This document shows, piece by piece, positions 6,921-24,740 of a stretch of DNA of 26,905 nt. Both the position numbers and the translations under genes were made by a program. The notes below the pieces were generated by a model. The model saw only the letters and a list, made by a program, of their open reading frames with translations, ran no database searches and was not told where the DNA came from. Within the stretch, counting starts at the first letter, position 1. Every line of letters starts with the position of its first letter. This DNA comes from Streptosporangiaceae bacterium (GTDB lineage: Bacteria > Actinomycetota > Actinomycetes > Streptosporangiales > Streptosporangiaceae): NCBI GenBank assembly GCA_030050125.1, contig JASIJN010000091.1, forward strand, positions 1 to 26,905. The letters are read 5' to 3'.

Positions 6921-8192
6921 TCAGGCGTCGACGGCTACCTCCGGGGCCGCGGCCGGACCTCCGGCGGCCGTGGCCAGCGGTCGCACAGCGAGCGTCGCGA
7001 CCACCACGCAGGCGGCGAAGACCGCCCAGCCCGCCGTGCCGTGATTGATCACCCCGGCCGTCACGATCACGGGGCCGACGACGTACTGCATACCGGTGCC
7101 GAGGTTGAACGTGGTCAGGTACTCGGCCCGGCCCTCCTCTGGAGCCAGAGCATAGGAGATGCCCCAGGCGCCAGCGGACTGCAAGAGCTCGGCGCCGGTC
7201 ATGACGACCACGCCGAGGATCAGTACCGCCACGACCACATCGGCCTGGTGGATATGCCCCGTGGCCAGGAAGATGAGGCAGCATGCGGCCAGCGCTGTTC
7301 CGCCGCGCTGCAGAGCCGTGATGCCGCCGGTCAGGGTGTCGGCGCCCCTTGACGCCCGCACCTGGCCGAGCATCGCGACGATAGTGTTCACCGCCAGCAG
7401 GATGCCGACCAGCGCGCGGGGGGCAGTGGTGTGCAGGGTCACCCATAACGGGATGCCCACGCTGAGCAGGGAGATATGCAGGCTTAGCACACCGTTGATC
7501 CCGGCCACGGCCAGGTGCCGCGGGTTTCGCAGGTGACGCAGTCGCAACGGCGCGCGCCGGGCCGACCCGGTCTGGCTTTCCGTTGCCGGGGCCGCGGCCA
7601 GCAACCCCGCCGCGACGAGGCAGAAAAAGGCATTGCCGAGCACGATTATCGAGAATCCGGTGCGCGTACCGTAGCCGATGGCGGCGGTGGCGGCTAGGGC
7701 GCCAAGCGAGTATCCCGCGTTGTAAACGACGCGGGTGCGGGCCATCATCGCCACCCGGGCTTCGACGCCGACCATGCGCTCGACGAGAGCCTGGTAGACC
7801 GGTGTGAGTGCCTGCTGACCGACGCCAATCATCGCGACGGCCACCAGGAACTGCCAGTACGAGCCGACGAGGAACAGCACGCCGAAGCTCAGCGCGCGCC
7901 AGATATGGAGCAGCACGAGGACCTGGCGCGGGCCGTGGCGATCCGCCAGCCAGCCGAGGACAGGCTGGCAGATCAGGCCGAGAAGGGCGCCGACGGACAG
8001 GCCGACGCCGACCTGGGTGGCGTCGAGGTGCAGGACAATGACGAAGAATACGGCCGACCCGGCGAGATACAGGCCGGTGCCGGTGCTGTCGATGAGGCCG
8101 ATGCCGAGGAGGGTGCGGGCGCCGCGGATGGAGGCGACGGGACCCAGGAGGAAGGCGGAGAGGCGGCCGGACCCGGATCCGGAGGTGGTCAT
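6921..8192 (-). CDS. MFS transporter (exporter) 1
   Basis: 423 residues from ATG 8192, which begins MTTSGSGSGR and follows the stop of ATP-grasp 1 by 13 bases, so the two are cotranscribed. About twelve hydrophobic segments are visible. The cytoplasmic loop between segments 2 and 3 carries GWLADRHGPRQV, the motif A signature of the major facilitator superfamily. It resembles the drug/peptide efflux type and shares with MFS 2 (13196-14569) a C-terminal block around the GAELLQSAG / GEMLQGAG segment. In dipeptide-antibiotic loci an ATP-grasp ligase beside an MFS exporter is a known pairing (bacilysin BacD/BacE), so export and self-protection are the likely role. Confidence 0.88.
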   Translation of the reverse strand: MTTSGSGSGRLSAFLLGPVASIRGARTLLGIGLIDSTGTGLYLAGSAVFFVIVLHLDATQVGVGLSVGALLGLICQPVLGWLADRHGPRQVLVLLHIWRALSFGVLFLVGSYWQFLVAVAMIGVGQQALTPVYQALVERMVGVEARVAMMARTRVVYNAGYSLGALAATAAIGYGTRTGFSIIVLGNAFFCLVAAGLLAAAPATESQTGSARRAPLRLRHLRNPRHLAVAGINGVLSLHISLLSVGIPLWVTLHTTAPRALVGILLAVNTIVAMLGQVRASRGADTLTGGITALQRGGTALAACCLIFLATGHIHQADVVVAVLILGVVVMTGAELLQSAGAWGISYALAPEEGRAEYLTTFNLGTGMQYVVGPVIVTAGVINHGTAGWAVFAACVVVATLAVRPLATAAGGPAAAPEVAVDA

Positions 8193-8205
8193 CGGAAATT
8201 CACAG

Positions 8206-9465
8206 TCATGTCGTCCGCCGGCCGGGTTCGGGATCGAAGGTTGGACGGAAGGTCGCGTCGATGGACTTCGCGATGTCCTCCAGGGCGGCGTGGTCGGGAG
8301 CGCGCCCGTAGACGATCCCGAGATGGCTCTGCGTCCCGTCCCGCCAGGAGTATGTCCGGCCGGCGGTCGCATGGACGTCCACGTGCTCGACGCCGGGCAG
8401 CGTTTCGAGCTCATCGGCTCCGGTGACCGCACGGAGCGTCCCGCCACCGTCGGCCGGCACCGCCAGGAAGTACTGATAGGTGACGCCACTGAACCGGGGC
8501 TGGAGCTCGCCGTGCGGCGGGCTGCCCAGCGCGGCGTCGATCGCGAGCTGGACCAGGCTGATGCCGGCGGCCCGCTTGAGGATCTCCGGGATATAGCCGC
8601 CGACGCGGCCGTTGACCTCGATGATCCGCGGACCATCAGGCGTCAGCTTTATCTCGGTGTGAGTGACGCCACTGCGCACGCCGAGCGCCTTGATCGCGGC
8701 CGCCTCAACCGCCAGAACCGCGGCCTGATCCTTCGCGCTCAGCGAGCAGGGCAGCAGCATCCCGGTCTCGCGGAACGGGTCGGCCAGCCGGAACTTGCCG
8801 GTCACGCAGATCTGAGTCGAACCTTCCTCCGTATGCACGGACTCGACCGACACGTAGTCGCCGAAGAACTGCCCGGCGACGCTCGGGTCGCCCCGCAGCA
8901 GTTCCTCCGCGACGAACTCGCAATCACCCGGCAGGGCACTGATGACCGCTTCGGCCTCGGCGGCCGTGGTGACCCGGTAGGTGTCCTTGCTTCCCGCCCC
9001 GCTGCGTGGCTTCACCACGGCAGGCAAGCCGACGGCCTCGATAGCGGCGCGCGGATCCGGCGACAGCGACCGGAAGCGGATGGCGTCGGCCCCCGCATCC
9101 GCGAGCGCCCTGCGCTGTGCGATCTTGTCGGTAAGCAGCACCACGGTTTCCAGCGAGTGCCCGCGCAGCCCGAGAGCCTTGGCCAACCGCGCGGTCTCGA
9201 GCAGCTGATACTCACTGAACGTGACGACGCCGACCGGCTGGTGCCCGGCTACGGCCTGGATCCGTCCCGCGTCGTCCAGCCCGGTCACATCGCACAGCGC
9301 GCCGAACGCCGCCAAGCGGGACCATACCTCGGCGACATGCGGCCGGTCCCGGTCGCCGACGAACAGCAGGTCGCAGCTTCGCCCGGCGGCGGCGCGGATG
9401 GTCGAGCCGGATACCGAGCCGTAGTCGTAGACGACTGCCAGCAGCGGCCGCGATGGAGCTGTCAT
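8206..9465 (-). CDS. ATP-grasp carboxylate-amine ligase 1
   Basis: 419 residues from ATG 9465 (GGGAAG upstream; the ATG overlaps the stop of the small ORF 9462-9605 as ATGA). The layout is that of an ATP-grasp ligase: an N-terminal preATP-grasp domain (about 1-105), a lid with LPAVVKPRSGAGSKDTYRV near residue 170, the ATP-binding FVAEELLRGD, and the metal-binding end of the fold, THTEIKLTPDGPRIIEVNGRVGG, near residue 300. IIEVNGRVGG is the form seen in L-amino-acid ligases of the BacD type, which activate a carboxylate as acyl phosphate and couple it to an amine. Substrates are unknown. It is followed directly by MFS 1. Confidence 0.9.
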   Translation of the reverse strand: MTAPSRPLLAVVYDYGSVSGSTIRAAAGRSCDLLFVGDRDRPHVAEVWSRLAAFGALCDVTGLDDAGRIQAVAGHQPVGVVTFSEYQLLETARLAKALGLRGHSLETVVLLTDKIAQRRALADAGADAIRFRSLSPDPRAAIEAVGLPAVVKPRSGAGSKDTYRVTTAAEAEAVISALPGDCEFVAEELLRGDPSVAGQFFGDYVSVESVHTEEGSTQICVTGKFRLADPFRETGMLLPCSLSAKDQAAVLAVEAAAIKALGVRSGVTHTEIKLTPDGPRIIEVNGRVGGYIPEILKRAAGISLVQLAIDAALGSPPHGELQPRFSGVTYQYFLAVPADGGGTLRAVTGADELETLPGVEHVDVHATAGRTYSWRDGTQSHLGIVYGRAPDHAALEDIAKSIDATFRPTFDPEPGRRTT

Positions 9466-9605
9466 GCCAGGACTTCCCGCATCTTGATAGGCAGCGGCAG
9501 CACCATGCACCCGTCTCGGCAGAAGGTTTTATGCAAGAGAAAACCGAGTGTGCGCATGTCGCGATGACATATGTCACGACATACCACTATGACCTCGCGG
9601 TTCAT
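9462..9605 (-). CDS. small Cys-rich ORF translationally coupled to ATP-grasp 1
   Basis: 47 codons from ATG 9605; the stop overlaps the ATP-grasp 1 start as ATGA. The peptide contains two matching CRDxC motifs (CRDIC at residues 9-13, CRDGC at 29-33) separated by 15 residues including HRD and a hydrophobic GFLLHK stretch. It could be a miniature metal-binding protein, a leader peptide controlling the ligase, or a ribosomal peptide substrate. No strong Shine-Dalgarno precedes ATG 9605, third-position GC is lower than in neighbouring genes, and an in-frame GTG at 9680 would make it 72 residues. I infer it may be real from the ATGA junction and the paired motif. An alternative is that this is simply the promoter region of ATP-grasp 1. 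Confidence 0.35.
   Translation of the reverse strand: MNREVIVVCRDICHRDMRTLGFLLHKTFCRDGCMVLPLPIKMREVLA
9565..9576. promoter_or_regulatory. palindrome upstream of ATP-grasp 1
   Basis: TGACATATGTCA is a perfect 12-bp palindrome, flanked by ATGTCG on the left (after a 3-base insert) and CGACAT on the right, so the symmetric region spans roughly 9556-9582. It lies about 90 bases upstream of ATP-grasp 1 in a locally AT-rich gap between two genes of the same strand. On the minus strand a -10-like TACAAT lies just upstream (9638-9643). A regulator-binding site for an internal promoter is the natural reading, although the palindrome also falls inside the small ORF. Confidence 0.4.
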
Positions 9606-9780
9606 GCCAACCCAAGGCGCAAAATGATTATGGTGATTGTAGCATAGATTTCCTAGTTCGGCACCTATCCCGGCGGCCACACTTTCTTTACTGAATTATC
9701 CAATTGCCGGAAAGGCGCATTGATCGAGCGTGCCTCGACCGTTCCTCGACGCCGCTGACGGGCGGGGTCCCGCGTTGTGA

Positions 9781-10872
9781 TCACGCACGCGCCTGACTGC
9801 GTGGCCGGGAGCCCTGCCGTTCGTAATCCCGCAAGATCTCCACCAGCCGCCCAGCGCCTTCACGGCAAGGATCGACAACCGGGAGCCCAGTCTGAGACTC
9901 AAGCTTCTCCGCTTCCCGCCGGAACTCTAGCTCACCGAAGCCGGCGCTGTTCACGCTGATGGCGGCCACCTTCGCCGGCCTCTCGAAAACGGTGAGCTCC
10001 TCATTCATTCGGATGAGTTCCTTAATGGGGATTATGGGGGTGTCCCAGACCTTTATCCGCTCGAGTCCCAAGCGGTGGCAGAAGACCATAACGTGCGGCA
10101 GCGCGCCATGCAGAATAGCCAGCGCCACTCCGCTAAAACCTATGTGGTTGAGCGATCCCTGGCCTTCCACGACCACCCAGTCGTTACCCGCCGCGGTCTC
10201 CATGACCACTTTTTCCACAGCGCCTGCCATGAAGTCGCCCGGCACACCGTCGACGGCCACCCCGTGCCCGGAGATGATCATGCCGCTCTGGCCTGTGGCC
10301 GCGAACCCGGTCTTGATCCCGCGGCGGTTCGCCTCGAAGTAGATCTCGAGAGACGTGGTCTTCTTGCCGATGTTGGAGTCGCTGCCGCACACGTGGATGA
10401 TCCAGGTGTCGAGTCCCAGCGTGCGCGCCTTGTTGAGCGGCACCGCCGGCGGATCCTTGGTCTCCCAGATGGTGATGTCGTTCTCACGGGCCGCGCGTGC
10501 CAGGTCGGGGTCGGCGAGCAGGCGGTAATGGATGCAGTTGATGATGTGCAGCTTGTGCCGCATGGCCGCCAGGAGATGCTGTTTCCAGCCCGGCGGCAGG
10601 TCGGCCGAGTGCAGCCCCTTGCCGATGATGAGGACCTCTGGCTGCGAGTGCAGGGCATCTTCGACGCTGGCGACGATGGGAATGGGGCCGCCATAGCCGA
10701 TGATGTCCTGCACCGTTTGTCCGGCCTTCGTGCTGTCGATGACCGCGACGCAGTTGTCGGACCGGTAGCGGATGAGGGACGCCGCGATCTTGCTGGTGAA
10801 CAGGCCGAAACAGTCCTCGGCGAATAGGATGAACTTCTTGTTTGCCAGTTCGGCGTGCTGCAACTGCCCCAT
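9781..10872 (-). CDS. DUF1611 family P-loop protein (DgcN-like)
   Basis: 363 residues, ATG 10872 behind GAGGGAGAAC. The N-terminal ~140 residues form a Rossmann-like domain (FILFAEDCFG...LIIGKGLHSADLPPGW), followed by the Walker A loop GSDSNIGKKT at 163-172 and VVVEGQGSLNHIGFSG near residue 240, all hallmarks of DUF1611. One studied member, DgcN, is reported to N-acetylate D-glutamate in D-Glu catabolism, so an acyl transfer onto an amino acid is the best guess here, but this protein may act differently. It starts 31 bases after ATP-grasp 2 in what looks like one operon, suggesting a role in preparing or capping an amino-acid substrate of the ligases. Confidence 0.85.
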   Translation of the reverse strand: MGQLQHAELANKKFILFAEDCFGLFTSKIAASLIRYRSDNCVAVIDSTKAGQTVQDIIGYGGPIPIVASVEDALHSQPEVLIIGKGLHSADLPPGWKQHLLAAMRHKLHIINCIHYRLLADPDLARAARENDITIWETKDPPAVPLNKARTLGLDTWIIHVCGSDSNIGKKTTSLEIYFEANRRGIKTGFAATGQSGMIISGHGVAVDGVPGDFMAGAVEKVVMETAAGNDWVVVEGQGSLNHIGFSGVALAILHGALPHVMVFCHRLGLERIKVWDTPIIPIKELIRMNEELTVFERPAKVAAISVNSAGFGELEFRREAEKLESQTGLPVVDPCREGAGRLVEILRDYERQGSRPRSQARA

Positions 10873-10903
10873 GTTCTCCCTCGGCGATTCCGCTGGTTCG
10901 GTT

Positions 10904-12148
10904 CTACGTGGTCTCCGCGACCGGCACGGCCGTCAGTCGGTACTTCGTGAGCGCGCTGTGCATGGCGCCCACAATTTGTTCTGGTGTTCCTCCACGGAAG
11001 AGGAAACGGCCTCCCTGAAGCGTGGCGTACCCGCCGGTTTGCCGCAGGACTTCCCCCGGCCCGGGAATCAGCTCGCGGTAAAGGAGCGGAACCTTCCCGA
11101 GCAGGGAGGTGGAACTGACAACCCTCTGCGGCAGCGGCTTCGGGCGGGGAATCATCAGCCATCCCCCGCTCTCGGCGAAGGCAGGCCAGTGCGGCCGCAC
11201 AAGATTACCCAGCATCACATCGGTCCACAGGCTGAACAGGTTCACGCCGTACAGGTCGCGGATGACGTAGGGGACATCGGCCCCTGGCACGCGTGCCCCG
11301 ATTTCCAGGAACACGAGCTCCCGTCCGGTGTCGAAGAACTCGAGATGAAAGGCGGACCCCTTCAGATCCAGGGCCGAAAGACAGCGGAGGGCGAAGCGCT
11401 CGCATTCGGAGCGCACCCCAGGGTCAGTCTGGACGACAGAGCCGAACGGCTCGCCAAGCTCGAAATCGAGGCCGTTGGATATGTAACGCGAAATGCAGAT
11501 AAAAAGACACTCGCCACTGGCGCTCACGACGCCGTCGGCGTGCATCAGGTCCCCCGTGATGTACTGCTCGATCTCGTGCTTGTCCAGGTCCGGCATCGCG
11601 CAGAGGGCACGCAGATCCTTGGCCGAGGTGACCTTGCGCACGCCCTGGCTGGAAGCGCCGCGTGCGGGCTTGAAGATCAAGGGGAAGCCAAGTGACCCAG
11701 CGTCGGACATCACCTGCTCCGGCGACCGGCAGGGCGCCCATCGCGGCACGGGGACGCCTGCCATGGCGAGGATCGTCTTCATGACGGTCTTGTCGCGGAA
11801 GCGATCCACCTCCGATGGTTTGGGCCCTGGGATCCCATGCTGCTCGCGGATGGCGGCTGCGACATCGAGGAGATATTCGGAAAATGCGATGACATAATTA
11901 GACGGGCCGTTTTCGGAAACTATTTTTCCGACCACTTCCAATACGTTGTCCGATTGCGCGAAGTCCACGATGGAGTGCACATCTTCAGCACCCCGCGGCA
12001 CGCCTGTCTGCCCGGCCAAATCACAGATGTAGGTCACGTGATATCGCTCGTGGTCGATGACGTCCTCGGGCCGGGCCAGCTCGTTGTCCCATCGCTGGCT
12101 GTCGCGGTATTGAGGCCAGCGGTTCAAAAGGAGTATGTTGCTGGGCAT
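10904..12148 (-). CDS. ATP-grasp carboxylate-amine ligase 2
   Basis: 414 residues from ATG 12148 (AGGAGAAC upstream; protein begins MPSNILLLNRWPQYRD). An in-frame GTG at 12259 would add 37 residues that look unlike the family, so I prefer the shorter form. Landmarks are VDRFRDKTVMKTILAMAGVP near residue 115, the ATP-binding GFPLIFKPARGASSQGVRKV, IEQYITGDLMHADGVV, and the metal-binding segment FHLEFFDTGRELVFLEIGARVPGADV near residue 290. The family joins a carboxylate to an amine or thiol with ATP. It is the first gene of operon A. A DosR-like palindrome lies about 150 bases upstream, shared with operon B. Confidence 0.9.
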   Translation of the reverse strand: MPSNILLLNRWPQYRDSQRWDNELARPEDVIDHERYHVTYICDLAGQTGVPRGAEDVHSIVDFAQSDNVLEVVGKIVSENGPSNYVIAFSEYLLDVAAAIREQHGIPGPKPSEVDRFRDKTVMKTILAMAGVPVPRWAPCRSPEQVMSDAGSLGFPLIFKPARGASSQGVRKVTSAKDLRALCAMPDLDKHEIEQYITGDLMHADGVVSASGECLFICISRYISNGLDFELGEPFGSVVQTDPGVRSECERFALRCLSALDLKGSAFHLEFFDTGRELVFLEIGARVPGADVPYVIRDLYGVNLFSLWTDVMLGNLVRPHWPAFAESGGWLMIPRPKPLPQRVVSSTSLLGKVPLLYRELIPGPGEVLRQTGGYATLQGGRFLFRGGTPEQIVGAMHSALTKYRLTAVPVAETT

Positions 12149-12296
12149 GAGGGACGTTCTCCTCATAGAAATTAGAGCTATTCCGAAGCAATGCCTCGAG
12201 CTGGCACCGAGTCGGCCAGCGCTCATGAGATTCGTGAGGAACTCTTCGACCTCAGTCACGATTTCACCAAGTATGACACTTCACCGCTGTGGCCAG

Positions 12297-12316
12297 AATA
12301 GGACCAAAGTCCCAGC
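12297..12316 (-). promoter_or_regulatory. DosR/NarL-like palindromic box upstream of operon A
   Basis: AATAGGACCAAAGTCC sits about 150 bases upstream of ATP-grasp 2. Its core GGACCAAAGTCC (12301-12312) matches 12 of 14 positions of the published DosR/DevR consensus GGGACTWWAGTCCC. The same box, with conserved flank, recurs at 24964-24983 upstream of operon B: on the minus strand both read GGACTTTrGTCCTATTyTGG. The TATTyT after each box could be a -10 element. A NarL/LuxR-type activator is the expected ligand. Confidence 0.55.
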
Positions 12317-12861
12317 CGGGGCTTCTTGGCCATCGGTGACTGACGTTGCGTAATCGTTTCTTACTCGCTGGCACCCCGCCCGCTGGTTTCCTCATCGGCC
12401 ACGAGTCATCTCGGCCAGGCCCGGCCTGAACCGGTGCCTGCCCGTTACCCTCGGCGGGCCGCTCCGCACCGCCGCCGCCATCAAAGGCCGAGGAAGACCT
12501 GGACGGCAAGTGGCCGCCCCGCGGCATCCTCACCCCATCGGGCTACGACCACCGCGGAACCCCGGTCCTCGGCGCCAGGGGCAGTTCGGCGAGAGCCCAG
12601 GCCAGCGGTGTGCGGCCTGCCACCTCGGCGGCGGTCGCTGCCAGGTGCGGGACGGTCTCCCAGGAGGTCGGAAACATGCGGCGAATACCATCAAATGGTC
12701 ATAATTGGACAAGCTTCAAGATCAGCGACAGATCCCGTTAAGCTAACGGAAGTGTTGGGCCTACCGGACACGGAATCTCCCGTCGCGGGCGTGCTCCGTT
12801 TTACGCCTGGTGGCGGTCCGCACCCGGGCCGCCGTCTACGCATTACAGAGTCTCGGCGACG
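12317..12861 (+). other. intergenic region with a coding-like remnant upstream of luxR
   Basis: About 545 bases between the operon A box and the LuxR gene. A stretch at roughly 12485-12660 reads in one plus-strand frame as EEDLDGKWPPRGILTPSGY, then DHRGTPVLGARGS, with strong third-position GC, like a piece of a protein gene I cannot name. It has no believable start. The same frame passes a perfect AGGAGG (12663-12668) before an ATG at 12676 and stops after 21 codons at 12741. Another small frame, ATG 12695 to TGA 12865, overlaps the LuxR start. Neither small frame is convincing alone. DNA around 12690-12760 is locally AT-rich and probably contains the LuxR promoter. Confidence 0.35.
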
Positions 12862-13137: not shown

Positions 13138-13195
13138 TGCAAGCGGGTAGCGTAACGTCGCCGCGGCCCACCACCGGCCCGGACTCACTGTCCGC

Positions 13196-14569
13196 TTAGA
13201 TGGGTGCCAGCGACCCCTGGTCGCTGGCGGATGGCTGCCGCGCGCGCTCGGCCCACCGTACGACGGCCGGGAACGCCAGGCCGGCGAGGGCCAGTGGCGC
13301 GCCGAGGACGAGCCAGCCCAGCCAGGCCAGGTGGCTAAGGAGTACCGTCGCGAGGGCCGGGGTGGCGACCGTGCCGAGCTGCACGGACATGGCGAACACC
13401 CCCTGGTATTGCCCCTGGTCCCGGTCTGGGGCCAGGCCGAAGGACACCGACCACTGGCCTGCCCCCTGAAGCATCTCGCCGAAAACGTGCACAACGGCTC
13501 CGGCCGCCACGACTGCCACGGCGATCAGCATGGGTCTTCCCTGTGCCGTCGCGAACAGCACGCAGCACACGGCCAGCAGCAGCCCAGAACGCCGCATCGC
13601 CCGCGCGCCGCCTTCCGGGTTCTCGCTGCCCTTGCTGACACGGACCTGCAAGAACACGACCGCGCCGGTGTTGAGAATCAGCACGGCCGCATACATCCAC
13701 GACGGTGCCGCCGTACGCGTGCTGATCCAGATCGGGAGCGCCACCGTGAGAATCGTCATGTGCATGGTGAGAACGGTGTTGAGCAGGGCCACGACCAGAT
13801 AGGGGCGGTCGCGCAGGGCTATAAGGCGCGGGCCGTCGTGATGCTTGGCGATCACGGGGACCGCGGGCACCCTGAGGTAGGCGATACCAGACAAAATGAA
13901 ACACACCCCGCCGGCGGCCAGTACTCCCAGGTACACCGTGGTGCTGTTTATATACAACGCCACGCCCCCCGCGGCCGCGCCGATCCCGATGCCCAGGTTG
14001 GCGATCGACCGCATGTACGACAAAGCATGGACGCGTTCCTTTTGGGGAATGAGCCCGGCGATGAGCGCGCCACGCGAGCCGTAGGCCGCGGACTCGGCCA
14101 TCAGAGCCAGGCTGACCACCACCACCAGCCACGTGAAGCTGTGCACGAAGGCATAAGCGCCCGTGAATAAGCCCAGCAGGCACAGCAGCCCGACGGTGAC
14201 GTTGCGCGGCCCGGTGCGGTCGGCGATGTGGCCGATGGGAACACTCCCGAGCATTCCGATGGCCGCGCCGCCGCTCAGCGCCAGCCCGACCTCGTCCACG
14301 CTGATCCCGACTTTCCTGGTGAAGTACAGGACAATGACCGACAGGACGATGCCGTGCCCCACTGTCTTCGCCAGGTTGCTCAGGCTCAGCACGCGTACGA
14401 CGCCCGCCGGAGGAACGAGCTCACTGAAGAACGACAATGTGTTCAGTCCTCGGCGCAGTGGCGGGCTGGTTGCCGAACTCGGCTCAGTATCCACGTACTT
14501 CGCTTGGTCACCGGCCTTCAGGATAGCCGGCCATACGTCGGCGCCCTCGTCCATCAGGCGCGCGATCAC
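13196..14569 (-). CDS. MFS transporter (exporter) 2
   Basis: Up to 457 residues from GTG 14569; ATG 14554 is an alternative. The first ~35 residues are not typical of a transporter, so the true start may be later, near the segment LNTLSFFSELVPPAG. Twelve hydrophobic segments follow, with motif A as GHIADRTGPRNV between segments 2 and 3. The C-terminal half (FGEMLQGAGQWSVSFGLAP) resembles MFS 1, indicating a pair of related exporters in the same locus. It is convergent with the LuxR gene (58-base gap). The 5' side is unusual: a 55-bp copy of nrdA sequence lies 24 bases upstream of the assigned start. Confidence 0.85.
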   Translation of the reverse strand: MIARLMDEGADVWPAILKAGDQAKYVDTEPSSATSPPLRRGLNTLSFFSELVPPAGVVRVLSLSNLAKTVGHGIVLSVIVLYFTRKVGISVDEVGLALSGGAAIGMLGSVPIGHIADRTGPRNVTVGLLCLLGLFTGAYAFVHSFTWLVVVVSLALMAESAAYGSRGALIAGLIPQKERVHALSYMRSIANLGIGIGAAAGGVALYINSTTVYLGVLAAGGVCFILSGIAYLRVPAVPVIAKHHDGPRLIALRDRPYLVVALLNTVLTMHMTILTVALPIWISTRTAAPSWMYAAVLILNTGAVVFLQVRVSKGSENPEGGARAMRRSGLLLAVCCVLFATAQGRPMLIAVAVVAAGAVVHVFGEMLQGAGQWSVSFGLAPDRDQGQYQGVFAMSVQLGTVATPALATVLLSHLAWLGWLVLGAPLALAGLAFPAVVRWAERARQPSASDQGSLAPI

Positions 14570-14592: not shown

Positions 14593-14647
14593 ACCGGGTG
14601 ATCGATCTGACCTTCTACCCCAGCGAGCAGGCGTCCGCGTCCAACCC
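14593..14647 (+). repeat. perfect 55-bp inverted copy of an internal nrdA segment
   Basis: These 55 bases are identical to the nrdA coding strand at 17819-17765, which encodes RVIDLTFYPSEQASASNP, but here on the opposite (plus) strand. Both flanks differ from nrdA. The copy lies just upstream of MFS 2 in the 220-base gap after the conserved gene 14791-15846, and is too short to encode anything useful. Confidence 0.9.
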
Positions 14648-16909: not shown

Positions 16910-19284
16910 TGGCACGCCTCGCAGGTCTCGGGGTTCTCCAGGGAGCAGGCGACGGCGTCCGCGGCGGCGGCCTGCGTGGCGTCTGCCGCCGGCAGCGCGA
17001 CGGTGGCCTGCTGGATCCGGGTCGCCGGGCGGGATCGCAGGTAATAGGTGGTCTTTAGGCCGGATTTCCAGGCGTGCAGGTACATCGACGACAGCTTGCC
17101 GATGGTGGGGGCGGCCAGGAACAGGTTGAGTGACTGGCTTTGGTCGATATACGGTGCCCGGGCCGCGGCCATGTCGATCAGCGCCCGCTGCGGCAGCTCC
17201 CAGGCGGTGCGGAACAGCTGCCTGGTCGGTTCCGGCAGCGCGGCGATGTGCTGCACCGAGCCGTCGGCCTGCTTGATCCGGTCCCGCACGGCCGGCGTCC
17301 ACAGTCCGTGTGCCTTCAGCTCGGTCACCAGCGCGGTGTTGACCTGAAGAAACTCCCCGGACATGGTCTCGCGCTTGAACAGGTTCGACACCTGCGGCTC
17401 GATGCACTCGTAGCACCCGACGATCGAGGCGATGGTCGCGGTCGGCGCGATCGCGATCAGCAGCGAGTTGCGCAACCCGGTTTGCTTGATCCGTTTGCGC
17501 AGCGCCTTCCACCGGGCCGGCTGGGTGCCCGTCACGCCCCACAGGTCGGGCTGCAGCTGGCCTGCGGCGGCGCGCGTCTGGTCGAACGCCGGGTGCGCGC
17601 CGTGCTCCTCGGCCAGGTCGGCCGAGGCCTCCAGCGCGGTCAGGTGGATCTCCTCGGCGATCCGCGCAGAGAGCTCGCGGCCCTCAGTGGAGTCGAACGG
17701 CAGCCGCAGCGCGAAAAACACATCCTGCAGGCCCATCACGCCCAGCCCGACCGGCCGCCAGCGGGGGTTGGACGCGGACGCCTGCTCGCTGGGGTAGAAG
17801 GTCAGATCGATCACCCGGTCCAGGAACGGGACGGCGGTGCGCACGGTGTCGCGCAGCTTGTCCCAGTCGACCCCCGGCGTGCCGCCGGGACCGGCGGTCA
17901 GGTGGCGGGCCAGGTTGATCGAGCCGAGGTTGCACACGGCGGTCTCGGCGTTCGTCGTCACCTCGGTGATCTCGGTGCACAGGTTCGACAGGTGCACCAC
18001 GCTGCCTGGCTGGCCGACCTGGTTGCACTTGGCGTTGCACGCGTCCTTGAACGTCATCCAGCCGTTGCCGGTCTGGGCCAGGGTGCGCATCATCTTCGCG
18101 TACAGATCGCGCGCCTTCACCTGGCGGACGTAGCGGCCGTCGGTTTCGGCCGCCCGGTAGGCCGCGTCGAACGCCTCGCCCCACAGGTCGGGCAGCTCGG
18201 GCACCTGGTCCGGGTCGATCAGCGACCACAGGCCGTCCGCCTCGACCCGGCGCATGAACTCGTCCGGCAGCCAGTTGGCCAGGTTCAGGTTGTGGGTGCG
18301 CCGGGCGTCCTCCCCGGTGTTGTCACGCAGTTCGAGGAACTCCTCGATGTCGGGATGCCAAGGCTCCAGGTAGACGCAGGCGGCGCCCTTGCGGCGGCCG
18401 CCCTGGTTCACCGCCGCGATCGACGCGTCCAGCGTCCGCAGGAACGGGACGATGCCGTTGGATTTGCCGTTCGTGCCACGGATCAGCGCACCGCGGGATC
18501 GCACCCGTGACCAGGAGATACCGATCCCGCCGGAGAACTTGCTCAGCTGCGCGACCTGCGCGTACCGGGCGTAGATGGAGTCCAGGTCGTCGCGCGGAGA
18601 ATCAACCAGGAAGCAGGAGGACATCTGCGGATGGCTGGTGCCGGAGTTGAACAGCGTCGGGGAGCTGGGCAGATACGCCAGCGTGGACATCAGCCGGTAG
18701 AACTCGACCGCCTCGGCTGGTGTCTGCGATAGCCCGCAGGCCACCCGCGTCAGGAAGTACTGCGGGGTCTCGATCACCATCCGGGTGGACGGGTGCCGCA
18801 GCAGGTACCGGTCGTAGACCGTCTTGATGCCGAAGTACTCGAAGTCCAGGTCGGCGCCGGGGTTGATGGCGTCATCCAGCTTGCGCGCGTTGTCCTTGAC
18901 GAACCGGGCCGTGGCGTCGTTGATCAGCCCTTCGGCCTGACCCAGCGCGACCGACTGGCTGAACGAGGCGATGCCCTGCCCGCGCACCTCCTTGCCGATA
19001 TAGCCGGCCAGCAACCGGCCCGCCAGCCGCGAGTACTGCGGCTCCTCGCCGGTCATCTCCGCGGCCGTCTGGATCGACAGCCGGTCCAGCTCCGCCGTGG
19101 TCGCCCCGTCATACAGGCCGCTGATCGTCTTGGTCGCCACCCGCATGGGGTCGACCTCGTCCAGACCGCCCGCGCACCGTTCAACCGCGCGGACAATCTT
19201 GTTCACGTCGACCGGCTCAGCGTCCCCGTTCCGCTTGCGGACCTGCATCCGCGCCTGCGTCGGCCTGGCCTTAGTGACCGTCAT
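16906..19284 (-). CDS. nrdA: class Ia ribonucleotide reductase, large (alpha) subunit
   Basis: 792 residues. ATG 19284 was chosen for the preceding GAGGAGA; an in-frame upstream start at 19341 lacks such a site. The N-terminal ~90 residues form an ATP-cone (VRKRNGDAEPVDVNKIVRAVE), the dATP/ATP activity switch. Catalytic residues are in NLCTEI (N434, C436, E438), with the redox partner cysteines in SSCFLVD and AVCNLGSINL, and a C-terminal shuttle pair in NPETCEACQ. It reduces ribonucleoside diphosphates to deoxyribonucleotides. It sits behind an AdoCbl riboswitch and NrdR-like boxes, as reported for Streptomyces nrdAB, where B12 shuts this enzyme off in favour of class II NrdJ. The NrdA residues ~489-507 segment is duplicated as a 55-bp inverted copy at 14593-14647. 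Confidence 0.96.
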   Translation of the reverse strand: MTVTKARPTQARMQVRKRNGDAEPVDVNKIVRAVERCAGGLDEVDPMRVATKTISGLYDGATTAELDRLSIQTAAEMTGEEPQYSRLAGRLLAGYIGKEVRGQGIASFSQSVALGQAEGLINDATARFVKDNARKLDDAINPGADLDFEYFGIKTVYDRYLLRHPSTRMVIETPQYFLTRVACGLSQTPAEAVEFYRLMSTLAYLPSSPTLFNSGTSHPQMSSCFLVDSPRDDLDSIYARYAQVAQLSKFSGGIGISWSRVRSRGALIRGTNGKSNGIVPFLRTLDASIAAVNQGGRRKGAACVYLEPWHPDIEEFLELRDNTGEDARRTHNLNLANWLPDEFMRRVEADGLWSLIDPDQVPELPDLWGEAFDAAYRAAETDGRYVRQVKARDLYAKMMRTLAQTGNGWMTFKDACNAKCNQVGQPGSVVHLSNLCTEITEVTTNAETAVCNLGSINLARHLTAGPGGTPGVDWDKLRDTVRTAVPFLDRVIDLTFYPSEQASASNPRWRPVGLGVMGLQDVFFALRLPFDSTEGRELSARIAEEIHLTALEASADLAEEHGAHPAFDQTRAAAGQLQPDLWGVTGTQPARWKALRKRIKQTGLRNSLLIAIAPTATIASIVGCYECIEPQVSNLFKRETMSGEFLQVNTALVTELKAHGLWTPAVRDRIKQADGSVQHIAALPEPTRQLFRTAWELPQRALIDMAAARAPYIDQSQSLNLFLAAPTIGKLSSMYLHAWKSGLKTTYYLRSRPATRIQQATVALPAADATQAAAADAVACSLENPETCEACQ

Positions 19285-19431
19285 CGCTGTCTCCTCGCGA
19301 GATCGCTTCCCCATGGCGCCGATCACGCGGGCACGCGACAAGACCAGCGGCCTGGTTGCGGCAGGTCACCGGGCCCGTCAGCCGTCCCGCGCGGCCCGAG
19401 CCGCCGCGCGCCCCTCGCGCGCGGCACGCTG

Positions 19432-19625
19432 GCAGGTCTTCGGACTCACGGGCACAGCGCCGCACACGCGCTTCCTACTGGCCGTCGCTTCCCAGGCTGA
19501 GACCCAGTGCTGTCGGCGCCGCGCATCCTGACGCGGCCCCGGACGGCTGTCGTTCCCGCTCACCGCTGCGGGGCAGTCCCGGAATTACACCGGGTTCCCT
19601 CTTGCCTCCGCGAACCTGGGAGGCC
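19432..19625 (-). promoter_or_regulatory. cobalamin (AdoCbl) riboswitch upstream of nrdA
   Basis: On the minus strand the conserved cobalamin-aptamer blocks occur in order: AGGTTC (P1 5' side), GGGAACCCGGTGTAATTCC, GGGACTGCCCCGCAGCGGTGA, later CACTGGGTCTCAGCCTGGGA, and finally GAGTCCGAAGACCTGCC closing P1. The element ends about 150 bases before the nrdA ATG. In Streptomyces coelicolor a B12 riboswitch of this kind turns off nrdABS when cobalamin is available, and the arrangement here fits that. The expression platform is probably in 19285-19431, but I did not resolve a terminator or SD-masking helix. Confidence 0.92.
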
Positions 19626-19645
19626 CGCGGAACCAGCTGCGGGCA

Positions 19646-19692
19646 ACACCATATGTGGGAGACTCCGCAATACCTAGCACCACATGTCGTGT
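19646..19692 (-). promoter_or_regulatory. tandem NrdR-like boxes in the nrdAB promoter
   Basis: Two related 16-mers, ACACCATATGTGGGAG (19646-19661, plus strand) and ACACGACATGTGGTGC (19692-19677, minus strand), match the consensus ACACWATATATAGTGT at about 10 and 11 of 16 positions. Their centres are 31 bases apart, the three-helix-turn spacing typical of NrdR box pairs. They lie just upstream of the riboswitch, where the nrdAB promoter must be. The rest of the gap up to 19984 holds no gene. Confidence 0.55.
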
Positions 19693-19984
19693 CGGCGTGT
19701 CGCGTTGTTGAGTCCCTGAACTCGGCGTCCCGGTTACCCGGCGACCGCGGCGCGCACCTGGCGGGCGGCCGCGACCAGGTTGCGCAGGGCGGGTTCGGTC
19801 TCGGCGTACCCGCGGGTCTTCAGCCCGCGGTTGCGATTCCAGGTATCGGACTGTACTCCGTTCGATGCCACTTCCGGGCCGCTCGGAGATCATCACGCAT
19901 CCGTCCCGCGCGGCGAACGGGCGGGAGGGACAGGTTCAGTCCTCGCACGAGAACCGATTGGATGGCCAGCCGCATTCCCTCAGG

Positions 19985-20878
19985 TCATTTTCCGTGCCCA
20001 GCATCAGCCGTGATCGTGGCATAACCCGTGGTCGCGGTCTCTTCAGCGGCGTGCGCCCCTTCCTGAAGCTGGAAGAGCGAGCCGAATGAGCGCTCGGCCA
20101 GTGGAAGGCGCCAGGTCCCTGCCTCCACCCGCGCCACTTGTGAGGTGCAGCCACGAAGGAGCTTGACGCCGGGCTCATTGTGGCTCGCGTGCGGGCCGAA
20201 ATAGATCGGATAGGAGTCCGCGGCCCGGTACGCGGGCAGAAAAGCTCGGCGGAACTTGTCGGAGCGGTTCGGCGACGAGTAGTGCAAGAGCAGGCAATGG
20301 ATGAAGACCACGCTGCCCGCGGGCGCCTCGATCGCCACCGCCGCGCCAGGATCGGGCGCGTCAGGCCCCGTCACCTTGCCGCGGAAATAACCATCGACGT
20401 AATGATTGGCCAGGCCGAGTTTGTGAGAGCCGGGCAGCGCTTGCAGGCAAGCATTTTGCGTGGTGGCGTCGTCCAGGTAGATCAGGGCCGTCACCAGGTC
20501 GGTGTTAGTGTGCGGGTAGTAGGAGAAGTCCTGGTGCCACTCCACGACGCTGCCCACGCGCGGACCCTTCATGTGGAGCTTGCTGTAGTGGAAGAGTATG
20601 TTCGGCCCGATGATCCGCTCGATGACGTCGAGCAACCGCGGGTCGGCCGCGGCCTTTTCAAATTCGGTGTGACGCTTGGTAGGTGACCAGATGCGCCGCG
20701 CGATGGAACTGTCCCCGGGCTCCACCTCAGCAACCGAGCCGATGTCGGGAACGCTGAGGACCTCTGCAATGGCGTCGTTCAGCCGTGCGACATGGTCCGT
20801 GTCGAAGAAGCGCTCCGCCACCGCGAACCCTTGCTGTCGATAGGTCTCCTCCAGCTCGGCCATGTTAGTTACAGTCAT
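19985..20878 (-). CDS. PhyH-family Fe(II)/2-oxoglutarate dioxygenase
   Basis: 297 residues from ATG 20878 (AAGGAG upstream), overlapping the end of the enolpyruvyl-transferase gene by 14 bases. The iron-binding triad is visible: H115-x-D117 in EWHQDFSYYPH and the distal H199 in HYSSPNRS, followed by the 2-oxoglutarate-binding R210/R211. ALPGSHKLG near 148-155 is the usual PhyH turn. Such enzymes hydroxylate, or sometimes halogenate or desaturate, an unactivated carbon; an Asp rather than Gly/Ala in HxD argues against halogenation. It is the last gene of operon B, so it probably tailors the product or a building block of that pathway. Confidence 0.92.
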   Translation of the reverse strand: MTVTNMAELEETYRQQGFAVAERFFDTDHVARLNDAIAEVLSVPDIGSVAEVEPGDSSIARRIWSPTKRHTEFEKAAADPRLLDVIERIIGPNILFHYSKLHMKGPRVGSVVEWHQDFSYYPHTNTDLVTALIYLDDATTQNACLQALPGSHKLGLANHYVDGYFRGKVTGPDAPDPGAAVAIEAPAGSVVFIHCLLLHYSSPNRSDKFRRAFLPAYRAADSYPIYFGPHASHNEPGVKLLRGCTSQVARVEAGTWRLPLAERSFGSLFQLQEGAHAAEETATTGYATITADAGHGK

Positions 20879-22316
20879 CTGTTCTGGGCTCCTTTTCGTC
20901 TCGCGGCCCGGCAAACCCGGATCGCACGGGATACACTGCGTCGGTGCTCGGGCCGAGCGACCCTTCGTAGCTGCTCGCGTCATCTATGAGCGAGGTCTTG
21001 ACACCGGCTTTTGCGAATTCAGAAAGAAACTCGGGGAAGGACAGGCGAACGCCTTCGGAACCCGAGAACACATTGGCTGATCTCATGCGGAGACCGGCCA
21101 CGAAGAGCGACATGAAGATACGGTGGTCGCTCCAGCTCGAGAACATTCGCCCGCCCGGATGCGAAGACGCGCCGAAGACCTCGAAGCCGTCGCAGTCCCC
21201 GTGGTCATAAATCAGCTTGATGTCGACACCCGCGCGCGAGAGCTCCGCGACCATGGCCTCGATGCGAGAAGTCTTGTGAAACCGCGTGATCTTTCCGCCG
21301 GTGACCCGCAGGCTGCCATCCACGTACGCCCCCACCGCCGCCAGGGTTGGCACGATGTTAGGGCAATCGGTCACGTCGATCTCGAAATTACCGCGAAGGC
21401 TCCCTGGAGAGTTCTCAACGATCAGGCAGGAGGTGGTGCGGTCGAACGTCATCCGTATCCCGAGCCGTTCGAGAATGGGGATGATAGCATATTCGCCCTG
21501 TGCGCTCTCGCCGTACATGCCCGTCAGGACGGATTTCCCCGGGTAAAGGGCGGCCGTGGCCAGCAGATAGGACGCCGACGTATAGTCCTCGCGCACCGTC
21601 ACCTCTTGCGCGCGGTAGGAAGAAGGCTCCACGCGATAATGGCAGTAATCGCTCGACGCGAAGACCTCGACGCCCGCCCGGGTCAGGCATGAGAGGGTCT
21701 GCCGGATGTACGACTGCGAATAAATTTCGCCCGTTACTTCTATTTCCACAGGACTGTCGGCGAACGGCGCCGCGAACAAGATGGCGGTGATGAACTGCGA
21801 ACTGATGTCACCTGGCAAGCGGCACGTGCCACCCTTCAGGCCGCCGCCCCAGTTGACGACGGGAGCGTTCCCCTCACGGCAGATGGCCTCGACGTCCGCG
21901 CCGAGCTCGCGGAGCGCATCGAGCAGTGGTGCCATCACGCGGTTGCACAGGGTCTCGTCACCGCTGATCACCACCGGCGACGAGTGCACCGAGCACAGCG
22001 CCGCCATCGTCCGAAACACGAGGGCCGAGCCATCGGCCCTGATCACACGCCTGTTGTGGCGGAATGACCGCCCGCAACCCCGGATCTCCAGATGTCCCTC
22101 GCGCTCAACGATCTCGGCACCCAGCGCGCGGCACGCGCGCTTCATGGTCTCGGTCTCATCGGACCGTAGATCGTTGAACACCCGCGAAACGCCATCCGCG
22201 AGCGTGCCCGCCAGAATGGCTCTTTGCGTTTCGGGCTTCGAAGAGGGGACGCGAAAGGTCCCTGAGAAGGACTCCAGTGGATCAACCTTGAGCAGCTTTC
22301 CGGTCTCCATGTTCAT
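20865..22316 (-). CDS. EPSP-synthase-like enolpyruvyl transferase with altered active site
   Basis: 483 residues; ATG 22316, 36 bases after the diiron oxidase gene. The two-domain AroA/MurA fold is recognisable by SSKPETQRAIL (25-35; PGSKS position, Lys27), R126 in LCNRVMAPLLDALRELGA, GDISSQFITAIL (169-180), D317 in IDVTDCPNIVPTLAAVGA, and SWSDHRIFMSLFVAGL (394-409). Compared with E. coli AroA, the NAGT loop is replaced by DGSALVFR (95-102). The KETDR segment reads HKTSR (347-351), placing Lys348 where the catalytic Glu341 should be, and the Lys411 position is Leu. PEP-binding Arg positions (126, 351, 399) appear kept, so PEP is probably still used but the acceptor differs from shikimate 3-phosphate. 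The closest functional analogy I know is NikO/PolA, which enolpyruvylate UMP in nikkomycin/polyoxin biosynthesis. The alignment is by eye. Confidence 0.85.
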   Translation of the reverse strand: MNMETGKLLKVDPLESFSGTFRVPSSKPETQRAILAGTLADGVSRVFNDLRSDETETMKRACRALGAEIVEREGHLEIRGCGRSFRHNRRVIRADGSALVFRTMAALCSVHSSPVVISGDETLCNRVMAPLLDALRELGADVEAICREGNAPVVNWGGGLKGGTCRLPGDISSQFITAILFAAPFADSPVEIEVTGEIYSQSYIRQTLSCLTRAGVEVFASSDYCHYRVEPSSYRAQEVTVREDYTSASYLLATAALYPGKSVLTGMYGESAQGEYAIIPILERLGIRMTFDRTTSCLIVENSPGSLRGNFEIDVTDCPNIVPTLAAVGAYVDGSLRVTGGKITRFHKTSRIEAMVAELSRAGVDIKLIYDHGDCDGFEVFGASSHPGGRMFSSWSDHRIFMSLFVAGLRMRSANVFSGSEGVRLSFPEFLSEFAKAGVKTSLIDDASSYEGSLGPSTDAVYPVRSGFAGPRDEKEPRTDDCN

Positions 22317-22352
22317 CGATTCGCTCTCGATTTCCGCGACGCGGGCTCCCAG

Positions 22353-23129
22353 TCAGGCGACGGTGACCGATTCGGACTCAGGCGTGGCCTCCGCCGATGT
22401 CTTCGCCACCGTGTCCTCATATATCTCCCTGAAGAACATCGCGAGGATTTCCTGCACGTCGTCGATGTACTTGAACACAGACTGGAAGTCCTCCTCGCTG
22501 AAGATTAGCTGTGAGAGGATCTTCCACATCTCCATGGCGTGGTCCTCGGTGGTGTCCACGTGCAGGTGGGCGGCCTGGCCTTTCACCATGTCCTTCCCGA
22601 GCTTCTCCTGAAGAGATGTCACGATCGCTGGCTGGAGTTTCTGCTGCGTGTACTCGACCAGGTAATTCGACACGACAGGCGCCAGCGGCGACTCGTGCTC
22701 CAGAGCGTAATAAAAGAACCCTTCGAAGAGGCGTGTCGACAGGTAGGGCTCCGTGTTGTAAATTTCCTCCATGGTAATTCCCGCCGCCTCGCAGTCGGCC
22801 ATGTACAACCGGTCGTGCATCATCTCCTCGCCCTGGTAAAGCGCGTAGTCATGAGCCGCCTTGGGGGATATCTGGGCAATCTTGTATATGGCCTTGGACT
22901 GGCTCACGCGAGACAGCCGGATTCGCCAGACATGCTCGATGAGTGTCCGGCGGTAATATGCTTGGTGGAGCTTCTTGTCGGTGAGGTGGGAGGCAAAAGG
23001 AACTGTCCGCTTCCACTCTTCCATCTTCTTGTCGAGATAGGCATCGAGCTCGGCCTTCTTCTCAAGCCCCTCCGCCTCGGAAAAATACGGCTTCGGATGG
23101 GTGATCCCAGTATTGTGTACGCGGTTCAT
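22353..23129 (-). CDS. heme-oxygenase-like diiron oxidase (HDO family)
   Basis: 258 residues from ATG 23129 (AAGGGAG seven bases upstream), overlapping the stop of the preceding small ORF as ATGA. The protein is all-helical. Candidate iron ligands, in the order expected for Haem_oxygenas_2/iron-containing redox enzymes, are E65/H66 in LIEHVWRIR, E101/E102 and H105 in YQGEEMMHDRLY, H188/H190 with D192, and D196/H197 in HLHVDTTEDHAMEMW. Relatives include UndA, SznF, BesC and related natural-product enzymes, which use O2 on amino acids or fatty acids for N-oxygenation, C-C cleavage or desaturation. It is flanked by an ATP-grasp ligase and an enolpyruvyl transferase, so an amino-acid-derived substrate is likely. 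The exact chemistry is not deducible. Confidence 0.85.
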   Translation of the reverse strand: MNRVHNTGITHPKPYFSEAEGLEKKAELDAYLDKKMEEWKRTVPFASHLTDKKLHQAYYRRTLIEHVWRIRLSRVSQSKAIYKIAQISPKAAHDYALYQGEEMMHDRLYMADCEAAGITMEEIYNTEPYLSTRLFEGFFYYALEHESPLAPVVSNYLVEYTQQKLQPAIVTSLQEKLGKDMVKGQAAHLHVDTTEDHAMEMWKILSQLIFSEEDFQSVFKYIDDVQEILAMFFREIYEDTVAKTSAEATPESESVTVA

Positions 23130-23443
23130 GGTAATCTCCCTTTCGGGCATCGCTGGCCCACAATCGAACGGACGGTCAGATGAGACTGGGCGGCGCGCGG
23201 CGCCAGATTCGATAGCGGCGGCCGCGACCACCTCCGGGTTCCCGAGCCACGGTGTTGCCCTCGTGCGACCGGCGGTAAGCCCCTGCCGGGTCGAGCGAAA
23301 TCGCCGGCAACCGGGGTGAAACCAGGGGTGCCGACGCGCGCCAGGTCTTCTCCCGGGCGCAGCGTAGCCTTGCCGCGGGCTTCGAGCTTCCCTCGCTCAT
23401 GGGGGCCGAATACCGGGTAGGCCGGGTCAGCGATACCGGACAT
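23126..23443 (-). CDS. small ORF fitted between ATP-grasp 3 and the diiron oxidase
   Basis: 105 codons from ATG 23443. The start lies 17 bases inside the end of ATP-grasp 3, with GGAG seven bases upstream. The TGA at 23126-23128 overlaps the diiron-oxidase ATG (ATGA). This exact fit suggests a translationally coupled gene. The first ~55 residues (MSGIADPAYPVFGPHERG..., then LRPGEDLARVGTPGFTPVAGDF) have good third-position GC. The rest is Arg/Gly/Pro-rich and includes a rare TTA codon. A neighbouring frame (GAYRRSHEGNTVAREPGGGR, stop at 23176) has equally good codon use from about 23280, so a frameshift is possible. I recognise no family. Candidates are a small partner protein, a peptide substrate, or a decayed gene. 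Confidence 0.5.
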   Translation of the reverse strand: MSGIADPAYPVFGPHERGKLEARGKATLRPGEDLARVGTPGFTPVAGDFARPGRGLPPVARGQHRGSGTRRWSRPPLSNLAPRAAQSHLTVRSIVGQRCPKGRLP

Positions 23444-24740
23444 GGAAGCGCTCCGTTGCCAGCCGGTCAAGAATTTCGGTTTCCGCAGCGAGGTTTTCGC
23501 TATCTACTTCCCAGAGGGCATCCATGAGGCAAATCGCTCGATCGGAGTCGTCCAGCTTCGTCCCCGCTTTCACGTGCAGCTTCAGGATCTGAGGCCCGCG
23601 CTCCCCAGCATCGAAACCGATCGAGTCAATCGTTCTTCCTTTTTCGCCGTACTTGCTCAGGAACACGGTTGCTTTCGATGCCGTTCCGTCGCGTAGAGAT
23701 TCCAGTTGTGAAGCTCTTTTCAAGCGCGCCAGGAACTCGTCCCGCCAGAGATCCTCAAGGATCAGGGATTCCGTCCACAGGTCAAGAATGGACTCACCGG
23801 TCAGCGCCTGCACGCTGGCATCGATTAGGCTGCCACCCATCCGTGGATTGATCTCTATGATTTCCCAGCGATCTCTGGCCGCCCAATACTTTGCTTCCAC
23901 ATGGAAGGCGCCCGCCGTCAGGCCCTGTTCTTTCAGCTCAGTGAAGCAACGGGTGACGAACTGTGCCCCCCGGAGAAGGACGCTCTGGCTCACGCTCGTG
24001 GGCGGGCTGATAGACATCGCTTCCAGCGTGGATCTCTGCAGCCGCTCCACCCGCGCTTTTTCCTGTATGCACAGGTGCCAGGCATCGTCGAGCACGATCG
24101 TCTCGAAGCTGAACTCAGGGCCCTCCACGTACTCCTCGGCCAGGAAGTCGTACTGGTCCATGAAGATGGCGCGCATGCGGTGGTCCTTCCGCATTTGCTC
24201 CTGGATCGCCGGCAGATCCTCCAGGTCTTGCAGGTCTTCGAGTATGAAGGCGGCGAAGGACGAGGCGCCGCGCAACGGCTTCACGAACCACTTGACCGAA
24301 GGGTCAAGGGGCGGGATGGCGTGGGGCGCGAGCCGGTGGCAGCGGACGCCGCTCAGCCCGCGCTGAAAGAGGAATTGCCTCAGCTCGTATTTGTTAAGGC
24401 AGAGTTTCAGCGCACCGACCGAGGAGTCGCGCGCCCCCAGCGCCTTGTTGAGGGTGGCCATCCACAGCCGGTACCCTTCGAAGGTCGCGATGGCGGCCTG
24501 GATTGCATAACCGCGGTCGGCGAAATCGCGCACCACGTCGTCGATGTCTGTATCGCTCAAGTCGGGCTCTTCCGTTACCAGGCAATCCGCGAGATAGCGC
24601 CGGCTCTCTTCGAGCGCCTCGGGCATTGCAGGACGGGAGCTTAAGGCGACGAGCGGCAGCCCGAGCCTCGCAGCCGCCTCGCTGGTCTCGCGAGTAAACG
24701 CTTTTCCCTGGTGCATCAATAGCAGCACAGCCCTCTTCAT
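23427..24740 (-). CDS. ATP-grasp carboxylate-amine ligase 3
   Basis: 437 residues, ATG 24740 behind GGAAGAGGTG. Landmarks are a preATP-grasp domain (MKRAVLLLMHQGKAFTRET), LCLNKYELRQFLFQRGL near residue 115, the ATP-binding VKWFVKPLRGASSFAAFIL near 150-168, FLAEEYVEGPEFSFETIV near residue 200, and the metal-binding WEIIEINPRMGGSLIDAS near residue 290. EINPRMGG is the classic ATP-grasp signature of peptide/dipeptide ligases. It is the first gene of operon B. A long leader (~220 bases) carries a DosR-like box. It differs clearly from ligases 1 and 2, so the three probably form different bonds. Confidence 0.9.
   Translation of the reverse strand: MKRAVLLLMHQGKAFTRETSEAAARLGLPLVALSSRPAMPEALEESRRYLADCLVTEEPDLSDTDIDDVVRDFADRGYAIQAAIATFEGYRLWMATLNKALGARDSSVGALKLCLNKYELRQFLFQRGLSGVRCHRLAPHAIPPLDPSVKWFVKPLRGASSFAAFILEDLQDLEDLPAIQEQMRKDHRMRAIFMDQYDFLAEEYVEGPEFSFETIVLDDAWHLCIQEKARVERLQRSTLEAMSISPPTSVSQSVLLRGAQFVTRCFTELKEQGLTAGAFHVEAKYWAARDRWEIIEINPRMGGSLIDASVQALTGESILDLWTESLILEDLWRDEFLARLKRASQLESLRDGTASKATVFLSKYGEKGRTIDSIGFDAGERGPQILKLHVKAGTKLDDSDRAICLMDALWEVDSENLAAETEILDRLATERFHVRYR

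Follow-up and report, generated by a model that had tools for sequence, protein, structure and literature searches.

Mangotoxin biosynthesis provides the closest described system with which to compare the locus reported here. According to PMC13185094, MboA, the acetylenase of this pathway, has as its substrate a tripeptide that two ATP-grasp ligases assemble, has six metal ligands together with an extra Asp90 and Tyr82, and requires the reductase MboB for the step from alkene to alkyne. The same paper names VarO as the other heme-oxygenase-like diiron oxidase (HDO) desaturase acting on similar substrates and reports at least 25 unique clusters that pair an HDO with ATP-grasp ligases (PMC13185094). 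Here, we describe a related gene set on a contig of a Streptosporangiaceae bacterium (JASIJN010000091.1, assembly GCA_030050125.1), the whole 26,905 nucleotides of which we call the window. The set comprises two ATP-grasp ligases (AG2 and AG3), a DUF1611 protein, an HDO, a PhyH-family dioxygenase, and AroAL, a protein with the fold of 5-enolpyruvylshikimate-3-phosphate (EPSP) synthase, and these six genes form a conserved unit found in bacteria of two phyla, Actinomycetota and Pseudomonadota. We put at roughly 60% the probability that the unit makes a short modified peptide without a nonribosomal peptide synthetase (NRPS), by an ATP-grasp pathway of the HDO kind that includes a neofunctionalized EPSP-synthase-fold enzyme.

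The HDO of the window scores 27.1 bits against the Pfam heme-oxygenase-like model, just below the cut-off of 28.9, and its best solved relative is MboA (9ypi). The MboA ligands E86, H89, E143, H172, D176, and H181 correspond to E102, H105, E159, H188, D192, and H197, so that the set of three histidines and three carboxylates is complete, and Tyr82 and Asp90 of MboA correspond to Y98 and D106. All six ligands, D106, and Y98 are invariant in an alignment of 16 HDOs. The residues with which MboA holds the arginine side chain, N57, D61, and D139, are not kept, being S73, Q77, and N155 in the window HDO. A structural model (predicted local distance difference test score [pLDDT], 88.8) has a fold like those of UndA, CtCADD, HrmI, and BesC; MboA is not among the fold matches listed for this model, and the relation between the two proteins rests on sequence. 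Set beside the mangotoxin cluster mboABCDE(F) (PMC13185094), the window shares two ATP-grasp ligases adjoining an HDO whose six metal ligands are the same, whereas its HDO has the arginine-binding residues replaced and the locus adds AroAL, PhyH, and DUF1611. Neither an arginine deiminase nor an MboB-like partner appears among the 22 window open reading frames (ORFs) scanned with Pfam, with no search aimed at mangotoxin genes, and the window holds no ferredoxin of the type seen in sister clusters (queries Fd_L022 and Fd_L047, MboB not being a query).

Evidence that the gene set is a unit comes from its recurrence. Species-representative genomes scanned with the 16-HDO alignment yielded 83 relatives. 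The best 80 of these correspond to 79 loci, which were analyzed together with flanks of up to 10 kb on either side by assigning each region to the window query that it matched best. AG2, AG3, DUF1611, HDO, PhyH, and AroAL lie together within 7.5 to 8.6 kb in 26 of the 79 loci, in three gene orders, and every core gene is covered to at least 60% by a single match in all 26, in a further genome, G539, and in the window. The hosts of the 26 full-core loci are Streptomyces (15 loci), Burkholderia/Achromobacter (2), and others (9, in Caballeronia, Paraburkholderia, Aquabacterium, Andreprevotia, Pseudoalteromonas, and Shewanella). Five further loci carry four or five core genes; three of them stop at a contig border (L004, L019, and L024), one at the fetched flank (L018), and one at neither (L061). 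The recurrence of the six genes in 26 of 79 loci is more than chance.

An earlier note on this DNA had listed three ATP-grasp ligases, DUF1611, HDO, an EPSP-synthase-family protein, PhyH, two major facilitator superfamily (MFS) proteins, and a LuxR-type regulator, and Pfam and NCBIfam recover every one of them. Its statement that NRPS, polyketide synthase, and radical S-adenosylmethionine families are absent also agrees with our scan, in which none occurs among the 22 window ORFs. The note described a locus built on three ATP-grasp ligases and proposed conservation in other genomes as the check. AG2 and AG3 belong to the conserved unit of six genes, and the third ligase, AG1, drops out, as it is not conserved with the core and is the best match in only one of the 79 loci (L061, at 26% identity). 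As the note had also supposed, no described cluster with this gene set was found in the literature, MIBiG not being covered. The cluster could nevertheless be included in the HDO and ATP-grasp set of PMC13185094, given that the paper reports at least 25 unique clusters of that kind.

Co-occurrence was also seen in a sample of 392 genomes from the genus of G001, the genome that holds Streptomyces locus L003, in searches that considered up to 4 and up to 6 candidates per genome. Strong AroAL matches (744 to 848 bits, the next being 262.5) are found in G001, G396, G406, G539, and G550, and strong HDO matches (454 to 467 bits, the next being 349.5) are found in the same five genomes, with the two genes no more than about 7 kb apart in each. 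When G001 is set aside as the center of the sample, picked for its cluster, the two coincide in four of four cases among 391 genomes, for which simple counting that ignores kinship gives a chance of about 1 in a billion. The cluster in G539 is contiguous and without a ribonucleotide reductase (RNR), running MFS, AG2, DUF1611, AG3, malic enzyme, HDO, AroAL, and PhyH. A plasmid search with the HDO returned eight records, the best at 44.4% and none from the close family.

The other 48 of the 79 loci (L029-L060, L062-L075, L077, and L078) are sister HDO/ATP-grasp clusters, hosted by Pseudomonas, Burkholderia relatives, Streptomyces, cyanobacteria, and others. They resemble the window in their HDO (about 40 to 46% identity) and in having a relative of AG3 (46 of 48) and of AG2 (43 of 48), but they show no match to AroAL, PhyH, or DUF1611, and in 46 of the 48 the HDO has a [2Fe-2S] ferredoxin nearby. 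Accessory genes of the six-gene clusters vary by layout. The 28 full-core rows, made up of the 26 loci, G539, and the window, include 23 with an aminotransferase, 19 with an MFS protein of the query types, 14 with a luciferase-like monooxygenase, 11 with a flavin reductase, and 3 with a malic enzyme; 9 rows, all of the Caballeronia-type layout, have a ferredoxin. A PhzF-like gene stands 3' of PhyH in G539, with matches in 9 of the 26 loci (L003, L006, L008, L009, L011, L012, L014, L015, and L016). The window carries the MFS match only. MFS2, which shares 39% identity over 399 residues with the MFS protein of Streptomyces typhae locus L017, is likely the exporter of the cluster.

Within the conserved ligases, AG3 has an E-[IV]-N motif in all 28 rows and AG2 an E-[IV]-G-A-R motif in 23 of 28, a count in which L008 and L011 lack a readable translation, though AG2 matches there over most of its length; the same holds for PhyH in L002. 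The DUF1611 protein scores 195.7 bits against the DgcN N-acetyltransferase model NF041892, below the equivalog cut-off of 480, and a literature search on DgcN and DUF1611 found nothing related.

The EPSP synthase family, the target of glyphosate, has been studied in great depth. AroAL resembles it in fold, its model (pLDDT, 80.6) matching EPSP synthase with a Foldseek E value of 1.7e-37, and in retaining Lys22, Arg344, His385, and Arg386. The AroAL alignment has 34 rows, 31 of them distinct (three repeat another row), and S23P, D313N, E341K, and K411L/C are present in all 34. In 31 comparison rows, by contrast, Glu341 is kept in 30, Asp313 in 28 (two have Glu), Ser23 in 20, and Lys411 in 20. 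AroAL also stands apart from AroA (TIGR01356) phylogenetically, its rows forming one clade with support of 99/99, in which the window protein is sister to that of G539 (97/91), and genomically, with its strong matches lying no farther than about 7 kb from the HDO in the five genomes of the 392-genome sample. A separate, higher-scoring AroA exists beside AroAL in five of five genomes tested, where AroAL itself passes the aroA cut-off in three and falls below it in two. Because none of the 31 distinct members retains any of the catalytic Asp, Glu, and Lys residues, AroAL is probably not an ordinary EPSP synthase. We predict a neofunctionalized enzyme on the EPSP-synthase fold that does other chemistry, and the loss of these residues throughout the family, in what is likely a biosynthetic cluster, suggests a reaction without an assignment in the literature searched.

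A pathway for the six-gene unit can be proposed on these grounds. AroAL and PhyH would produce or alter an unusual amino acid, which an aminotransferase or malic enzyme, encoded beside most sister clusters and not in the window, may help to supply. Through acyl-phosphate chemistry, AG2 and AG3 would then incorporate this amino acid in a di- or tripeptide. As in MboA, the diiron site of the HDO would bind the peptide carboxylate while the side chain is desaturated, and since the guanidinium-binding residues of MboA are replaced, that side chain is probably not arginine. No ferredoxin gene adjoins the HDO in the window, so the reaction would end there at the alkene, whereas it could continue in clusters of the Caballeronia type, where a [2Fe-2S] ferredoxin adjoins the HDO. 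The DUF1611 protein might cap an amine or activate a group with ATP, and MFS2 would export the product. For AroAL, retention of the anion-binding residues together with loss of the acid/base set suggests a phosphorylated or carboxylated substrate and a reaction other than normal enolpyruvyl transfer. The product imagined in the earlier note survives in part: a short peptide with an oxidized residue fits MboA, the closest characterized relative. Ordinary enolpyruvyl transfer by the protein that the note called an enolpyruvyl transferase is unlikely, its catalytic positions being replaced in every member.

We advance a broader proposal more tentatively, at less than even odds: that AroAL is a new activity on the EPSP-synthase fold within a widespread family of NRPS-free peptide antimetabolites, in which the HDO would add an alkene, or an alkyne where a ferredoxin is present, on a residue other than arginine. 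The cluster is small and occurs in both phyla, and among its hosts are culture-collection strains such as Streptomyces alboflavus NRRL B-2373 and S. griseocarneus JCM 4580; its product and the AroAL reaction are therefore directly testable. HDOs with and without an adjacent ferredoxin offer a natural comparison for the alkene-to-alkyne step of MboA-type enzymes.

Several observations weigh against a peptide pathway with a repurposed AroAL. Peptide formation and desaturation are borrowed, by analogy, from a relative of weak overall similarity, and AG2 has E-x-G where most ATP-grasp ligases have E-x-N. The window AroAL lies above the NCBIfam aroA cut-off of 287.25 bits (TIGR01356, 301.4 bits). 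Its positions are named by what we take to be E. coli EPSP synthase numbering, of which only Asp313 was met independently, in a structure title. Among the comparison rows, ten Streptomyces paralogues (L109-L115 and L117-L119), which have Tyr23 and Ile411 and form their own clade, have lost the Lys411 position alone while retaining Glu341 and Asp313, and a distant paralogue, L107, has AroAL-like substitutions in a genome, G681, that has no HDO match. At least three of the five co-occurrence genomes (G001, G406, and G550) are strains of L003, L004, and L014 and so add no new sampling. Lastly, the aminotransferase, luciferase-like monooxygenase, flavin reductase, and malic enzyme of the sisters are without a match in the window, for which reason the window's own cluster may be incomplete or have another product. 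In a separate locus (L166:5297-11279), two tandem EPSP-synthase-like genes, one with AroAL-like substitutions, adjoin genes for asparagine-synthase-like and methyltransferase proteins.

Other explanations have been considered for single components. AroAL accompanies a better-scoring AroA in five of five genomes and sits inside a likely biosynthetic cluster, and it might thus be an insensitive self-resistance version, protecting against a product that inhibits EPSP synthase; a resistance copy must retain catalysis, however, and replacement of the Asp313, Glu341, and Lys411 positions in 31 of 31 distinct members makes this role unlikely. We think it quite improbable that the locus encodes a bacilysin-like dipeptide pathway built on AG1. 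Bacilysin-type clusters do resemble the window in combining an ATP-grasp ligase with an MFS protein, and AG1 has a LAL_C2 domain and weak BacD similarity and adjoins an MFS gene, but its 54.3 bits against the BacD model are far below the equivalog cut-off of 850 and it does not travel with the core; the enzymes for anticapsin were not searched individually. A further candidate lies in the center of the locus, where the earlier note, which saw one joint locus with operon spacing, overlooked NrdA, NrdB, DUF6925, and a cobalamin riboswitch. Together, these are a class I RNR operon with a cobalamin riboswitch, and it splits the set into AG3-HDO-AroAL-PhyH and MFS2-AG2-DUF1611-AG1-MFS1, which therefore do not make up a single operon or cluster. 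Its NrdA is 78% identical to a protein from a genome of the Streptomyces phylum. A cobalamin riboswitch precedes the nrdAB operon in Streptomyces, and the riboswitch with intact nrdAB suggests that the operon is probably housekeeping. Its place between the cluster halves, on the same strand, could be taken to mean that it confers self-resistance to a product targeting RNR. This seems very improbable in view of the Streptomyces-like riboswitch arrangement, the absence of NrdA, NrdB, and DUF6925 from all 79 loci (up to 10-kb flanks), and a guanine-plus-cytosine (GC) content nearer the flanks than the core (in 1-kb bins, 0.66 to 0.70 for the RNR block, 0.67 to 0.72 for the flanks, and 0.59 to 0.65 for the core genes).

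How the RNR block came to lie there is a question of its own: either the operon entered the cluster and left a repair scar, or an assembly error put the block between the cluster halves in a misjoined contig. At one edge of the block is an exact 55-nucleotide inverted copy of part of nrdA, with no similarity beyond it and sharp ends on both sides, which may be a repair scar or an assembly join. Three points speak for a misjoin: assemblers often use a k-mer length of 55, the G539 sister cluster is unbroken and ordered differently, and GC differs between the RNR block and the core. NrdA, however, is intact across its own copy of the repeat, and a templated-repair scar would look alike. Moreover, a protein identical to the window's DUF6925 is found on three NCBI contigs, the longest of 26872 bases, possibly assemblies of the same data, and an identical HDO is found on a 7171-base NCBI contig, the neighboring genes of which were not read. 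We regard a misjoin as a genuine possibility, somewhat less probable than its opposite. Ten nrdAB loci from six genomes (with wide flanks of 20 to 40 kb in three genomes and about 1.5 kb in the others) match window genes only in NrdA and NrdB. A search for DUF6925 in 296 genomes from the phylum to which G001 belongs gave no match, a weak negative since 0 of 14 controls matched either. Among 120 DUF6925 matches listed, those with a named source are alphaproteobacterial; the DUF6925 gene of the window directly follows an actinobacterial nrdAB.

The order of the genes on the minus strand is AG3, HDO, AroAL, PhyH, the RNR operon, MFS2, AG2, DUF1611, AG1, and MFS1, with assignments from Pfam and NCBIfam scans of the window proteins (Table 1). 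An ATG at 20881 may be an alternative start for PhyH, and the open ORF of MFS1 extends to 8636, overlapping AG1.

Table 1. Positions of the six core genes and other features in the window
Feature	Position	Strand	Evidence
AG3, ATP-grasp ligase (core)	23427-24740	minus	PF13535 1.3e-11
HDO, heme-oxygenase-like diiron oxidase (core)	22353-23129, start ATG 23129	minus	MboA 9ypi E=3.5e-15
AroAL, EPSP-synthase-fold protein (core)	20865-22316	minus	TIGR01356 301.4 bits
PhyH, iron/2-oxoglutarate dioxygenase (core)	19985-20983	minus	PF05721 8.7e-36; HQD motif present
Cobalamin riboswitch, 5' of nrdA (outside core)	19414-19652	minus	RF00174 71.8 bits, E=4e-16, cut-off 31.5
NrdA, class I RNR large chain	16906-19341	minus	PF02867 1.8e-192
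NrdB, RNR small chain	15899-16909, start 16909	minus	PF00268 9.5e-78
DUF6925 protein	14791-15846	minus	PF21973 9.8e-114
55-nucleotide exact inverted copy of nrdA 17765-17819	14593-14647	plus	Sequence repeat
MFS2	13196-14569	minus	PF07690
Short LuxR-type helix-turn-helix protein, 91 residues	12862-13137	plus	PF00196 3.9e-22
AG2, ATP-grasp ligase (core)	10904-12259	minus	Several ATP-grasp models, all weak
DUF1611 protein with P-loop (core)	9781-10872	minus	PF07755 8.6e-59
AG1, L-amino-acid-ligase-type ATP-grasp (outside core)	8206-9510	minus	PF13535 + LAL_C2
MFS1 (not placed in core)	6921-8180, start approximate	minus	PF07690 at residues 189-522 of 571-residue ORF

Outside the core, a fourth ATP-grasp protein, similar to the graspetide ligases MdnB and CdnC, is encoded at the window edge (25863-26831). 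Just upstream of the gene for the 91-residue LuxR-type protein, a partial LuxR-type coding copy (12790-12850) looks, by eye, like a remnant. The left flank encodes an EF-hand protein (3194-3739) and a glycosyltransferase with an EryCIII-like C-terminal domain (5357-6745).

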